Assembly: GCA_019241305.1 (NCBI GenBank)
Contig: JAFAXE010000013.1
Location: 1-52,455, forward strand
Source: Vulcanimicrobiota bacterium
Lineage (GTDB): Bacteria; Vulcanimicrobiota; Vulcanimicrobiia; Vulcanimicrobiales; Vulcanimicrobiaceae
Direction: 5' to 3'
DNA: 52,455 nucleotides
Shown here: one piece after another, positions 42,134-46,581 of the stretch
Position numbering within the stretch: the stretch's first letter is position 1
Layout: every line of letters begins with the position of its first letter
Notes under the pieces: generated by a model
What the model was told of the DNA's origin: nothing
The model's input: only the letters and a program-made list of their open reading frames with translations
Databases searched by the model: none
Program-made: the position numbers and the translations under genes

Positions 42134-42511
42134 ATGAACTGGCTGATCCGCTTCGTCATCAACGCGATCGCGCTCTATCTGATTGCGAAGTTCGTTCCGG
42201 GATTCAATCACGACGTGGGAGTCGTCACCGCTCTCATCGCCGCGATCATCTTCGGGCTGGTCAACGCGATCATTGGGCCAATTCTGCGGCTCGTCACGTT
42301 GCCGATCAATTGGATCACGCACGGCGTCTTCTCAATCGTCGTGAACTATATCCTATTCTGGCTGACGGTGTTGATCGCACCGAATTTTAAGACCACCGGC
42401 GAAATTCCAGCATGGGAAGCGCTGCTCATCGGCGCGATCATCATGATGATCGTCTCGACGGCTGTGCATGCGGCGTCCCGGACCGAAGAGGAACGGGCCG
42501 CGGCCCGCTAG
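42134..42511 (+). CDS. Small integral membrane protein, phage holin family 4 superfamily
   Basis: A 125-residue protein with four hydrophobic segments: RFVINAIALYLIAKFVPGF, TALIAAIIFGLVNAIIGPIL, THGVFSIVVNYILFWLTVLI and EALLIGAIIMMIVSTAVHAA. The order and the GLVNAIIGPILRLVTLP loop match the phage_holin_4_2 (YvlD-like) family, found widely on bacterial chromosomes and not a sign of a prophage here. GGAGG precedes ATG 42134 by six bases. It has its own terminator right after it. Confidence 0.85.
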   Translation: MNWLIRFVINAIALYLIAKFVPGFNHDVGVVTALIAAIIFGLVNAIIGPILRLVTLPINWITHGVFSIVVNYILFWLTVLIAPNFKTTGEIPAWEALLIGAIIMMIVSTAVHAASRTEEERAAAR

Positions 42512-42605: not shown

Positions 42606-42638
42606 TTGACAGGCCATGCGTATGCATGTATACATGCA
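42606..42638 (+). promoter_or_regulatory. Promoter with 16-base palindromic operator of the GntR gene
   Basis: A perfect -35 box TTGACA (42606-42611), a 17-base spacer and -10 box TATACA (42629-42634). The palindrome TGCATGTATACATGCA (42623-42638, perfect over 16 bases) is centred on the -10 box. Its core TGTATACA fits the GT-N-AC type sites of FadR-like GntR regulators, so GntR would block its own promoter. The expected transcript start near 42641 nearly coincides with the GTG at 42642. Confidence 0.85.
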
Positions 42639-42641
42639 GAC

Positions 42642-43292
42642 GTGGATGCGAACAGCGTGCGGGCGCAGAGTACTGCGGAGTTGCTGGCGGCACGTCTGCG
42701 CGACGACATTGCCGAGGGTACCATTCGCGCCGGCGAGCAACTGCATCAGGAAAACCTCGCAGCACAGTACGGCTACAGTCGCAGCCCAATTCGTGAAGCG
42801 CTGAGGCTGCTCGAAGCGCAAGGTCTGATCACCTATTTCCCCAACCGCGGCGCGGTCGTCAATGGGATGACGGCGTCGCGCGCGCAGGAAGTTTTCGAAA
42901 TTCGCCGTTTGCTGGAGCCGGCGCTCATCGGCCACGTCATACGGGAGATCGGCGATGACGACGTTGCAGAGTTGCGCCGTGCGCTCGCGGCTCTCGATGT
43001 CGACGTGCCGGCCAAAGCCTGGATTCCGCTCCACTGGGAATTTCACGAGCGCGTCTACCGGCTCGCCGGCCGTCCTCACATGCTCGAAATTTTGACGGAT
43101 CATCGCTTGCGCATCTCGGAACTGCCGGACGTCGAGTCGTTTCTGCACTCTGCCTGTCAGCGGTTCTTACGTTGCGACCGGGCGTTGATCACCGCACTGG
43201 CGCGGCACGACGCAAGCGCTGCAAAAGCTGCTACCCTTCGACACCTTTCCGTCTTGGAGGACCGCTGTCTGCAGCGCTACAGCAAACCATGA
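42642..43292 (+). CDS. GntR family transcriptional regulator, FadR/FCD subfamily
   Basis: A 216-residue regulator. The N-terminal winged helix is STAELLAARLRDDIAEGTI, LHQENLAAQYGYSRSPIREA, LRLLEAQGLITYFPNRGAVV, the usual GntR layout. The C-terminal FCD helical domain starts at EVFEIRRLLEPALIG and includes LHWEFHERVYRLAGRP with metal-binding-type His residues. GTG 42642 is chosen because the promoter leaves almost no leader; GTG 42657 is the alternative. Its stop overlaps the S9 peptidase start (ATGA), so the regulator and the two peptidase genes form an operon, presumably induced by a peptide-derived acid. Confidence 0.9.
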   Translation: MDANSVRAQSTAELLAARLRDDIAEGTIRAGEQLHQENLAAQYGYSRSPIREALRLLEAQGLITYFPNRGAVVNGMTASRAQEVFEIRRLLEPALIGHVIREIGDDDVAELRRALAALDVDVPAKAWIPLHWEFHERVYRLAGRPHMLEILTDHRLRISELPDVESFLHSACQRFLRCDRALITALARHDASAAKAATLRHLSVLEDRCLQRYSKP

Positions 43293-45244
43293 CGCTGCGC
43301 TCGCTGCCGATCCTTATCGCTCTCCTGGTGGCGTGCGTATGTGCGTCGAACGCGCGCCCGTACAGCTTCGCCGATGCAGTCGGCATCCACTGGATTGCTT
43401 CGTTGGAACTGGCGCCGAACGGTGCGCTGCTCTACAGCGTTGGCGGCGCGAACGTCCAAAAGAATGCGTTTGAAACCGCGTACGTGCTGCAAGATGCTTC
43501 CGGCGCCGTGCGCAAGCCAACGGTGCTGGCAAACGCCTCCGTCGCGCATTGGTCACCGGATGGCCGCCAAATCGCCGTGGTGATGCCGCAAGACGCGGGC
43601 AGTGTGCTGACGGTGCTCGATGCGCGGACGCTCGCCGTCAGGCGAAAGCTTCGCACACCGTCGACGATCCCAAATTTCTCGTGGTCGCCGGACGGACGTA
43701 CGATCGCGTCCGTCGAGTACGTTGACGCGAGAGACTCACATTCCGCGGTATCGGTGTGGCTGCGACCCGACACCGACGTCCTTGGAGATATTCCGAGTTC
43801 GCGTCAGTTGTGGCTCACCGACGTTCGTACGGGCCGTCGCCGCCAGCTGACGCGCGACCGGTTCTCATACGGTGGGCCCGTCACCGATCACGACCCCAGT
43901 TGGTCGGCCGACGGCACGTCACTGCTCGCGGTTCGGCAGCCCTCCGCACTCTATGGCGATTTCGAGAAGGCCGAGGCGGTGCGTGTCGATGTGCAGAGCG
44001 GTCGCGTGCAGCCGGCACTCCATACGCACAGCTTCAGCTTACCGAACTCTATTCCGCCGCAGTTCGGTCCGGATGAACGAATTCTCAACGTTCACACCTG
44101 GGACGGAACGTTTGCGGCGCGCGAGGATTTGTTTATCGGGGATCGCGATCTTTCGGCCTCGTTCGATCACGACTTTTGGACCTGCGCGGCGTCGCAAGCC
44201 GCCTGGGACGGGCGCTCGGTGCTCGCAACGACGATGGACGGCGTCGATACGCGCCTCTATCGCTTCTCCGAGGATGGAGCCGTGCACGCCCTCACTCCAG
44301 CAGGTGGTTCGGTGCAGGGCTTCTCGGTTTCGAAAGCAGGTATCGCCATTGCGTACTCGACTCCGGCGCGGCCGCTCGAGATCTATATGCTCGTTCCGAG
44401 CGGCGCGATGCATCAGGTAACACACATCAACCATCTGCCGTCCGGCACGAACGTTGCGCCGACGAAAATTATTCGGTGGACGGGACCGGACGGGCACCGG
44501 CTCGTCGGGCAACTCACGGCAACGACGGATGAACGGGCGTTGCTGACGGAGCCGCACGGTGGCCCGCAATGTGCGGACGACTCATCGTTTGCGCCGTACG
44601 CGCAGGTTTTTGCGCAGAATGGTTACGGCTACTTTCGTCCGAGCGTGCGTGGCAGCGACGGCTACGGCGACTGGTCGTACAAAGCCATCGTAAACGACTT
44701 CGGCCCCGGACCGCTCACCGATTTGCTGAGCGGTGTCGACGCGGCTTTGGCCGCGACGCGCGTGAATCCTGAGGCGTCGTTCCTGTACGGTGCCTCGTAC
44801 GGCGGATATCTCACCGCCTTCGCAGTCACACACGATCGTCGCTTCCGGGCTGCCGTGGCCGGCATCCCGGTGACCGATCTTGCGCTGGACTATGCGTTGT
44901 CGGAGAGCCCGAACATTACGCGCCGGTTTTTCGGAAAGACGCCGCTACGGGACAATGAGGCACGCATGGATGCGCAGTCGCCCGTTACGGCCGCGCGCGA
45001 TTTGCAAACCCCGTTGCTCTTGATGGCAGGTTTGCGCGATACACGGGCACCGTATCCACAAACGATCGCCTTCTATCGCAGGCTGGTTGAATATGGGAAG
45101 ACGGTGAGTTTGTTGGCTTACCCGAGCGATGGACACGGCCCAAGCACGCCACGCTCCCAGTCCGATTGGTTCAAGCATATCGCCGGCTGGTTTGAAGCGC
45201 ACGGCGGACCGGCGGTTCCTGGGGCACTCACAGCGCAGCGGTAG
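43289..45244 (+). CDS. Secreted S9 family prolyl oligopeptidase-like peptidase
   Basis: A 651-residue exported serine peptidase. A signal peptide covers about residues 1-23 (LPILIALLVACVCASNA). The first 400 residues form a WD40-like beta-propeller with repeated WSPDGR units (near 96, 138 and 215). The C-terminal alpha/beta hydrolase has Ser503 in YGASYGGYL, Asp584 in AGLRDTRAP and His616 in SDGHGPS, a full triad of the acylaminoacyl/dipeptidyl-peptidase type. ATG 43289 overlaps the GntR stop. It is followed with a one-base overlap by an M20 dipeptidase, which suggests stepwise peptide breakdown. Confidence 0.92.
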   Translation: MTLRSLPILIALLVACVCASNARPYSFADAVGIHWIASLELAPNGALLYSVGGANVQKNAFETAYVLQDASGAVRKPTVLANASVAHWSPDGRQIAVVMPQDAGSVLTVLDARTLAVRRKLRTPSTIPNFSWSPDGRTIASVEYVDARDSHSAVSVWLRPDTDVLGDIPSSRQLWLTDVRTGRRRQLTRDRFSYGGPVTDHDPSWSADGTSLLAVRQPSALYGDFEKAEAVRVDVQSGRVQPALHTHSFSLPNSIPPQFGPDERILNVHTWDGTFAAREDLFIGDRDLSASFDHDFWTCAASQAAWDGRSVLATTMDGVDTRLYRFSEDGAVHALTPAGGSVQGFSVSKAGIAIAYSTPARPLEIYMLVPSGAMHQVTHINHLPSGTNVAPTKIIRWTGPDGHRLVGQLTATTDERALLTEPHGGPQCADDSSFAPYAQVFAQNGYGYFRPSVRGSDGYGDWSYKAIVNDFGPGPLTDLLSGVDAALAATRVNPEASFLYGASYGGYLTAFAVTHDRRFRAAVAGIPVTDLALDYALSESPNITRRFFGKTPLRDNEARMDAQSPVTAARDLQTPLLLMAGLRDTRAPYPQTIAFYRRLVEYGKTVSLLAYPSDGHGPSTPRSQSDWFKHIAGWFEAHGGPAVPGALTAQR

Positions 45245-46581
45245 TGCAGTACGGAGCGTGGCTCGAGCAGCACATCGGCCGCTACGTCGATGAACTCTCA
45301 CGCTTCGCCGCCATTCCGAGTGTCGCCGGCGATGCCGATGCCATTGCTGTCGCGGCACAGTTCACCGCCGATGCGTTTCGGCGCCGCGGCTTCCATGCCG
45401 AAGTGATACCGTCACGTGGCAACCCGGTCGTTGTTGCGACGGGTGGTTCCGGTGAGGCTTCGCTCTTGCTTTATAATCACTACGACGTACAACCGGCGGG
45501 AAGGACGGAGGAATGGCGCAGCGATCCATTTGCGCCGGTGCTGAGCGATGGAATGCTGTATGGCCGCGGCATCATCGACGACAAAGGCGAGATCGTGGCG
45601 CGCCTCGCGGCCATCGACGCCCTGAAGGAACGCTTCGGTGAGCTGCCCCTGCGGATCGTCACATGTATCGAAGGCGAGGAAGAAACGGGGAGTTCGAACC
45701 TCGCTCCTTTTCTCGCTGAACACGCGGACCGTCTTGCGGCCGGCGCGTGCCTATGGGAAGGCGGCATGGTCGATGCGGCGGGACGCCCGCACATGTGGCT
45801 CGGCGTCCGGGGACTCGTCTTTGTCCACCTCAGCGTCACGACGCTCCGTCACGATGCACACTCGGGCTTCGCGCATGTCTTGCCGAGCGCTGCATGGCGG
45901 CTCGTCCACGCACTAGCGACCCTCGCCGGCGCGGATGGTCGCGTTCTGGTGGAAGGCTTGAACGAGGCGGCATGCGGGCCAACGTCTGCGCAAAACGTCC
46001 TGCTCACGCGCATGCCTGACGAGGACGACGATTTTCGCGCAGAGTTCGGCGTCGAGCGCTTCGTCGCAGGACGAACGGCACGCGACTTGCGCGAAGCCGT
46101 GTTCCTTCCCACGTGTAACCTGTGCGGCTTGCATAGCGGCGCCGAACGAGGGCAGACGCGAACGATCGTGCCGGCCACCGCGCATGCATCGCTCGATCTC
46201 CGTCTGCCGCCCGGCGTGACGCCCGAACGCGCGGTGAATGCTCTACGCGCTCACCTGGATCGCGCCGGCTTCGCCGACGTGCAGATGCGTGCAGCCGAGG
46301 CGGAACGCGCCGCGTGTTCCGATCCCGAACATCCCTTCGTTGGGATAGCATCATCGGCGCTTTGTGACGTCTATGGCGTCGAGCCGGTGGTTTCTCCGCT
46401 CGTCGGTGGAACCGGGCCGGCGGCCCATGTCGTCGAGACCCTCGACCTGCCTTTCGTCAGCATCGGCTGTAGTTATCCCGGTTCGCGGAAGCACGCACCC
46501 AACGAGCACCTTCGCCTGCGGGATTTCATCTTGGGTGCGGCGGCGATTGCAACGCTCATGGAACGCTTCGCCTTCGCCTAA
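45244..46581 (+). CDS. M20 family metallo-dipeptidase
   Basis: A 445-residue zinc peptidase of the carnosinase/ArgE group. It has the first metal His79 with Asp81 in YNHYDVQPAG, GIIDDKGEIVARLAA with Asp112-113, the catalytic Glu pair in CIEGEEETGSSNL, an Asp/Glu-binding WEGG segment, and the dimer lid from HMWLGVRGLVFVHLSVTT onward; the final SPLVGGTGPAAH and HAPNEHLRLRDF carry the last metal His. Length and the HYDVQP motif favour dipeptidases over aminoacylases. GTG 45244 overlaps the S9 stop by one base. It converges with the cyclase gene, only 10 bases away. Confidence 0.93.
   Translation: MQYGAWLEQHIGRYVDELSRFAAIPSVAGDADAIAVAAQFTADAFRRRGFHAEVIPSRGNPVVVATGGSGEASLLLYNHYDVQPAGRTEEWRSDPFAPVLSDGMLYGRGIIDDKGEIVARLAAIDALKERFGELPLRIVTCIEGEEETGSSNLAPFLAEHADRLAAGACLWEGGMVDAAGRPHMWLGVRGLVFVHLSVTTLRHDAHSGFAHVLPSAAWRLVHALATLAGADGRVLVEGLNEAACGPTSAQNVLLTRMPDEDDDFRAEFGVERFVAGRTARDLREAVFLPTCNLCGLHSGAERGQTRTIVPATAHASLDLRLPPGVTPERAVNALRAHLDRAGFADVQMRAAEAERAACSDPEHPFVGIASSALCDVYGVEPVVSPLVGGTGPAAHVVETLDLPFVSIGCSYPGSRKHAPNEHLRLRDFILGAAAIATLMERFAFA

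Follow-up and report, generated by a model that had tools for sequence, protein, structure and literature searches.

The gntR gene of a Vulcanimicrobiota contig probably possesses an autoregulated leaderless promoter, on which the GntR repressor would sit upon the -10 box until released by a ligand, and which would drive an operon that also encodes an S9 peptidase and an M20 dipeptidase. This reading of the promoter, the operator and the leaderless start is supported by sequence comparison. The whole stretch of DNA that was analysed, called the window below, is a contig of 52,455 nt (GC 63%); the source genome amounts to 2.8 Mb in 227 contigs and is 91% complete.

Promoter, palindrome and operon in the window

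A preliminary description of the window had placed a near-consensus promoter, a perfect 16-base operator and a leaderless GTG in front of gntR, and TTGACA-N17-TATACA, the 16-bp palindrome and the in-frame GTG were all found where it had put them. The -35 hexamer TTGACA (42606–42611, forward strand) matches the consensus at 6/6 positions and deserves the term near-consensus. The -10 hexamer TATACA (42629–42634, forward strand), which comes after a 17-nt spacer and lies inside the proposed operator, does not: it matches at 4/6 positions and lacks the T at position 6. Because the scanner requires this T, TTGACA-N17-TATACA was not listed in a standard promoter scan of the window. TTGACA followed after 16–18 nt by at least 4/6 of TATAAT has a single occurrence in the window when both strands are considered.

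The -10 box is covered by the perfect 16-bp palindrome TGCATGTATACATGCA (42623–42638, no strand assigned), whose core ATGTATACAT (42626–42635) is identical to the published operator of Atu1419. While the palindrome is perfect and lies over the -10 as described, its extent had to be revised, since the repeat continues as a 24-bp near-palindrome, CGTA-TGCATGTATACATGCA-GACG (42619–42642, no strand assigned, 11/12 pairs), which we propose as the GntR operator. Its right arm reaches the G of the GTG start codon (42642–42644, forward strand), which is in frame with the GntR/FCD protein and is proposed to be leaderless. TATACA and this GTG are separated by seven bases, with no room for a Shine-Dalgarno sequence. 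Leaderless genes typically carry TANNNT some 12 nt ahead of their start codon; the window departs from this, as TATACA begins 13 nt upstream and has no final T. By its position and by the comparative footprint the operator lies on the regulator's own promoter, so that gntR would be repressed by its own product. A strict alternation of purines and pyrimidines, the longest in the window (24 nt, 42615–42638; the next is 16 nt), runs over the operator and is possibly a mere by-product of repeated 8-mer units.

The regulator gene (216 aa, 42642–43292), the proposed autorepressor, is followed on the same forward strand by genes for an S9 (prolyl oligopeptidase) family peptidase (650 aa, 43292–45244), with a signal-peptide-like N-terminus as judged by eye, and a dipeptidase-like peptidase of the M20 family (445 aa, 45244–46581). 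The gntR stop overlaps the S9 ATG (ATGA, 43292), the S9 stop overlaps the M20 GTG (TAGTG, 45244), and the three genes apparently form one operon headed by gntR. The upstream PF04020 gene (4-TM holin-like family, 42134–42511, forward strand) ends 94 bp before the -35 and was not counted in this operon. Elsewhere in the window, a homogentisate 1,2-dioxygenase gene (TIGR01015, 38722–40200) is followed by one for a FecR-domain protein.

Perfect 16-bp palindromes are found in the window about as often as in Markov sequences (4 against a mean of 2.7 in 40 simulations), and the palindrome alone is therefore weak evidence. An argument from its rarity was dropped, given that the simulations yield similar counts. 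Inverted repeats of 24 bp with at most one mispair number 2, against a simulated mean of 0.53 (40 Markov simulations). The case for an operator rests on the place of the palindrome and on its relatives, not on its rarity. Since palindromes of this kind are no rarity in the window, the present one could also serve a different regulator, or be a repeat that arose by chance in an AT-rich promoter, with the GntR protein acting elsewhere. We consider this very improbable, because the core is identical to the operator crystallised with an FCD-GntR protein (Atu1419), the site recurs at a fixed distance before homologous gntR genes (see below), and both the full palindrome (a single match with up to 3 mismatches) and its core TGTATACA (only two occurrences) are rare in the 2.8 Mb of the 91% complete source genome.

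A genome-wide search for the palindrome, which had been recommended for defining the regulon, yielded no second full copy in the source genome. With one site only, the full palindrome was discarded as a definition of the regulon, and the regulon of the window GntR protein therefore looks local. Two FCD-GntR genes were matched in the source genome. The second (G000:C104 2785–3132, within locus L048 2728–5147) is preceded, on the same strand, by a gene of the beta-lactamase family (PF00144). Upstream of this PF00144 gene, the centre of the second TGTATACA is 20 nt from the ATG and off the -10, and TAATAT is located 7 nt before the ATG. Each TGTATACA of the source genome hence precedes an apparent operon that holds one of its two FCD-GntR genes. 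Since the assembly is 91% complete, further copies of TGTATACA or of FCD-GntR genes may be missing from it.

Predicted fold of the regulator

Both domains of an FCD-GntR protein, the GntR winged helix-turn-helix (PF00392, 7.8e-18) and the FCD domain (PF07729, 2.1e-17), were detected over their curated cut-offs. Named NCBIfam models gave matches below cut-off only, and no specific regulator name was therefore assigned. An AlphaFold model of the protein was built from 26 sequences (mean pLDDT 87.7). It predicts effector-domain helices at residues 78–102, 105–116, 124–140, 145–158, 164–170 plus 172–187, and 191–214, which makes six helices if the kinked 164–170/172–187 is counted once. Six effector-domain helices are reported for the VanR group and seven for the FadR group (PMC7797058). 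When the model was submitted to a fold search, PmiR, McbR, AlkR(VanR) and TM0439 outranked the FadR entries, and the nearest solved structures are FCD-GntR proteins of the VanR kind, among them DNA-bound Atu1419 (6za3). The window regulator is predicted to adopt a VanR-group fold. The VanR group has a short GT...AC palindrome as its site; a sequence with the ATGTATACAT core is present in the window, and binding to it is predicted.

In FCD members that bind metal, three His and one Asp/Asn make up the site. In an alignment inspected by eye, the corresponding residues of the window protein are His131, His135, Asp179 and His201, and the usual Asp/Asn and one His look swapped between His131 and Asp179.

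Recurrence of the layout in related genomes

The GntR protein was searched against 99 family genomes at a threshold of E <= 1e-15. Matches were obtained in 25/99 genomes, its own included, and the closest other homologue (G019) is 43% identical. From 35 listed matches, 30 GntR genes in 30 retrieved loci formed the homologue set. GTATAC was present in the 130 nt that precede the matched domain in 17 of these 30 genes and absent from the other 13. In 16 of the 17 GTATAC-bearing genes (window included) its centre lies 9–13 nt ahead of an ATG or GTG that is in frame; the remaining one has it at 6 nt. A control stretch of equal length inside the same 30 genes contained GTATAC in 0/30, with about 0.7 expected from the background density. 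In a second set, made of the best FCD match per genome (30 loci minus three already in the first set, i.e. 27), GTATAC was found in 2/27, at 17 nt, and in 1/27 of the control stretches; the layout therefore belongs to a subset of FCD regulators. A single-protein scan of genome contigs found no relative. Among the homologous regulators compared within the family, about half thus show this layout. The earlier suggestion of a repressor over the -10 box is strengthened both by the Atu1419 core and by this recurrence of GTATAC before starts in 16/30 homologues.

Two registers of the -10 were observed. The -35 is separated by 17 nt from TACNNT in G005, G006, G020, G054, G075 and G088 (18 nt in G059), and by 17 nt from TATACA in the window and in the S9-gntR operon of G091. 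Several of the relatives with TACNNT do have TANNNT about 12 nt before the start. The pattern TTGAC-N10-20-TGTATACA-N2-14-RTG was detected in 10/99 family genomes and its reversed control in 1/99. It directly precedes gntR in seven of the ten genomes; no GntR gene is present in the 3-kb locus of two others (G023 and G042). TTGTATACAA was also tried as a marker and rejected: 24/99 genomes match, with a GntR of this kind in only 8/24 loci, and the reversed-pattern control is commoner. It was kept only to supply loci.

Three of the 30 homologues (L015, L022 and L028) carry a GATAATATATTATC-type palindrome instead, 10–12 nt before a start, so that their layout is alike and their operator different. 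In five loci of one genus, g37 (L105, L108, L109, L111 and L113), two GTATAC operators lie 44 bp apart upstream of gntR. Among homologues from named genomes, GTATAC was found within 200 nt in 18/80. With TTG also accepted as a start, it is centred 12–13 nt before an in-frame start in ten loci of Nostocales, and at 14 nt in one more. Two TTGTATAC-type sites, one of them centred 12–13 nt before a possible start, were observed in each of the Nostocales loci L138, L139, L141, L142, L144, L149, L150, L153, L154 and L165, and three inspected Nostocales homologues are divergent from a 2-isopropylmalate synthase (leuA-like) gene, as judged by eye.

The leaderless start could be assessed from the same relatives. 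G005 and G006 have an in-frame stop 27 nt ahead of the start, and G020 has one directly before it; the codon 6 nt after the -10 is therefore the first possible start in these genomes. Over the 99 family genomes, TTGACN-N16-18-TANNNT-Nx-ATG gave 936 matches against 160 in the control for x = 5–7, 448 against 153 for x = 10–12 and 292 against 159 for x = 15–17. Since leaderless-type spacing is over-represented, leaderless expression is probably common in this family of Vulcanimicrobiota (Candidatus Eremiobacterota). The source genome alone lends weak support, with 6 matches against 3 in the control at the leaderless spacing of 5–7 nt, and 2 against 1 for the pattern with exact TTGACA. TANNNT just before starts showed no excess in 270 kb of the source genome with crude gene calls, and a slight excess in relatives. 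An enrichment test over all in-frame RTG codons was too diluted and was abandoned. The proposal of a leaderless GTG thus finds backing in the missing Shine-Dalgarno space, in the upstream stops of the three relatives and in the family-wide excess of this spacing.

The same repressor and operator could also act on an mRNA that is not leaderless, if translation started at the second GTG (42657) behind a leader of about 16 nt. This codon is in frame and its use would retain the whole winged helix-turn-helix. Residues 1–6 of the longer form (start at GTG 42642) are modelled with low confidence, and the N-terminus of the model therefore does not decide the start codon. A start at 42657 is nevertheless unlikely: no clear Shine-Dalgarno sequence precedes it (by eye), it lies 26 nt from the operator centre as against 9–13 nt in 16/17 GTATAC-bearing genes, and the in-frame stops of G005, G006 and G020 leave no start further upstream there.

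The link between the regulator and peptidases also extends beyond the window. In G019, the gene of the closest homologue adjoins an M20 gene 56% identical to that of the window; its other neighbours encode an alpha/beta hydrolase that contains a TAP-like domain (PF08386) and a solute-binding protein of family 5. A double TGTATACA (L034 9780–9960) is located at the M20 start, in the gap from which the M20 and TAP-like genes diverge. The gntR of G091 is preceded by an S9 gene that shares 42% identity with that of the window and has TTGCCG-N17-TATACA-5 nt-ATG. An aspartyl protease gene (PF13650) is divergent from gntR in G005, G020, G088 and G059, and, by sequence, in G006. Other homologues, e.g. 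those of G058 and G092, have different neighbours. Our best guess is that the regulator is a local switch for peptide use.

In G005, G006 and G020, the start codons of the divergent gntR and aspartyl protease genes are 26 bp apart (L037 7316–7343, L038 8195–8222 and L036 7764–7791). In these pairs, codons 2–3 of the protease gene (CGTCAA) are the complement of the gntR -35 TTGACG, and gntR codons 3–5 contain TGTCAA, the complement of the protease -35 TTGACA. As each -35 is written in the codons of the other gene, promoter and protein sequence would constrain each other. The M20 and TAP-like start codons of G019 are 28 bp apart and display the same mutual -35 layout; these starts are less certain because each of the two genes has additional in-frame ATGs farther upstream, within the operator. 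A general search for the divergent pattern gave 21 matches against 5 in the control. Long coding-like ORFs on both sides were found in 5/21 (the G005, G006, G020 and G019 pairs and L123); the 16 matches without two such ORFs were discarded. The family may thus have a reusable compressed switch, a suggestion for and against which we see about equal reason: a palindrome of about 20 bp would be at once the operator, the -10 box for one leaderless promoter or for two, and nearly the whole gap, with the -35s in codons 2–5 of the opposite genes, both genes being silenced together. The window would represent a one-sided version of it.

Proposed mechanism and comparison with known systems

In the mechanism that we propose, a VanR-type GntR dimer would bind the 24-bp palindrome, with the ATGTATACAT core on the -10 and an arm extending to the first base of the GTG. 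Because the operator lies on the -10 and reaches up to the GTG, the repressor and sigma-70 RNA polymerase would exclude each other. The FCD domain would take a ligand, probably a small molecule released when peptides are broken down, upon which the repressor would leave. Transcription would begin at the GTG or within one or two bases of it, and ribosomes would start at the 5' end of the mRNA without a Shine-Dalgarno sequence. The S9 and M20 genes would then follow, probably by translational coupling through the overlapping codons ATGA and TAGTG. As the leaderless -10 adjoins the start codon and comprises the same bases as the proposed repressor site, control of transcription and start of translation would be held within about 40 bp.

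Some GntR proteins activate, and the window protein could be an activator or a dual regulator on this same site. We find this hardly credible and the least probable of the alternatives. A site atop the -10 leaves little room for activating this promoter, and the Atu1419 operator, which overlaps -10 boxes, is reported to be a repressor site (PMC7797058).

The findings suggest that leaderless expression is common in this little-studied phylum, by which start annotations there would be corrected. They also point to a candidate regulator for the use of peptides and to its operator. With the divergent version, a situation in which two promoters would each be encoded within the opposite gene becomes open to testing.

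Literature searches, with most subscription journals outside their scope, yielded a single soil co-assembly paper when leaderless expression was sought in Eremiobacter-type bacteria, and no match on leaderless autoregulated GntR operators. A search for GntR proteins with ATTGTATACAAT gave no match either.

Among the closest parallels is Atu1419 of Agrobacterium fabrum, an FCD-GntR protein of the VanR group (6z74, 6za0, 6za3, 6za7 and 6zab). Like the window protein, according to its model, it combines a GntR and an FCD domain with a six-helix effector domain. Atu1419 is reported to bind the 10-mer ATGTATACAT, as seen in a crystal structure and by gel shift, and a copy of the palindrome overlaps the -10 of atu1418 and of atu1420, as the operator does in the window (PMC7797058). 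It is described as a tetramer that regulates hydroxycinnamate genes and is able to form a DNA loop between sites separated by 190 bp (PMC7797058), whereas the window has one site, its operon encodes peptidases and a leaderless start is proposed for it; the two proteins share about 20% identity in a structural alignment. Leaderless expression is not mentioned in the main text of the Atu1419 paper (PMC7797058). PmiR (7xp0) and McbR/YncC (4p9f) are among the top fold matches of the model (Z 21–22), with 19–23% identity to the window protein.

Leaderless genes are described as having little or no leader, with the -10 some 12 nt ahead of the start codon (Zheng 2011, PMC3160421; Deinococcus-Thermus 2025, PMC12340547). 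Operators are not mentioned in the main text of the latter, and the phyla named in the accessible text of the former do not include that of the window. The pxpR gene of Corynebacterium glutamicum is a GntR gene with a mapped leaderless start (PMC13274462), such as is proposed for that of the window. It is reported to be divergent from its target operon, and its operator lies 143 bp from its own start, unlike that of the window; its authors judge autoregulation unlikely (PMC13274462). Operators that cover the -10 and leaderless starts are thus both known already, each singly. What look like new features are the pairing of the two at a fixed distance within one regulator group and the mutual arrangement of the -35s.
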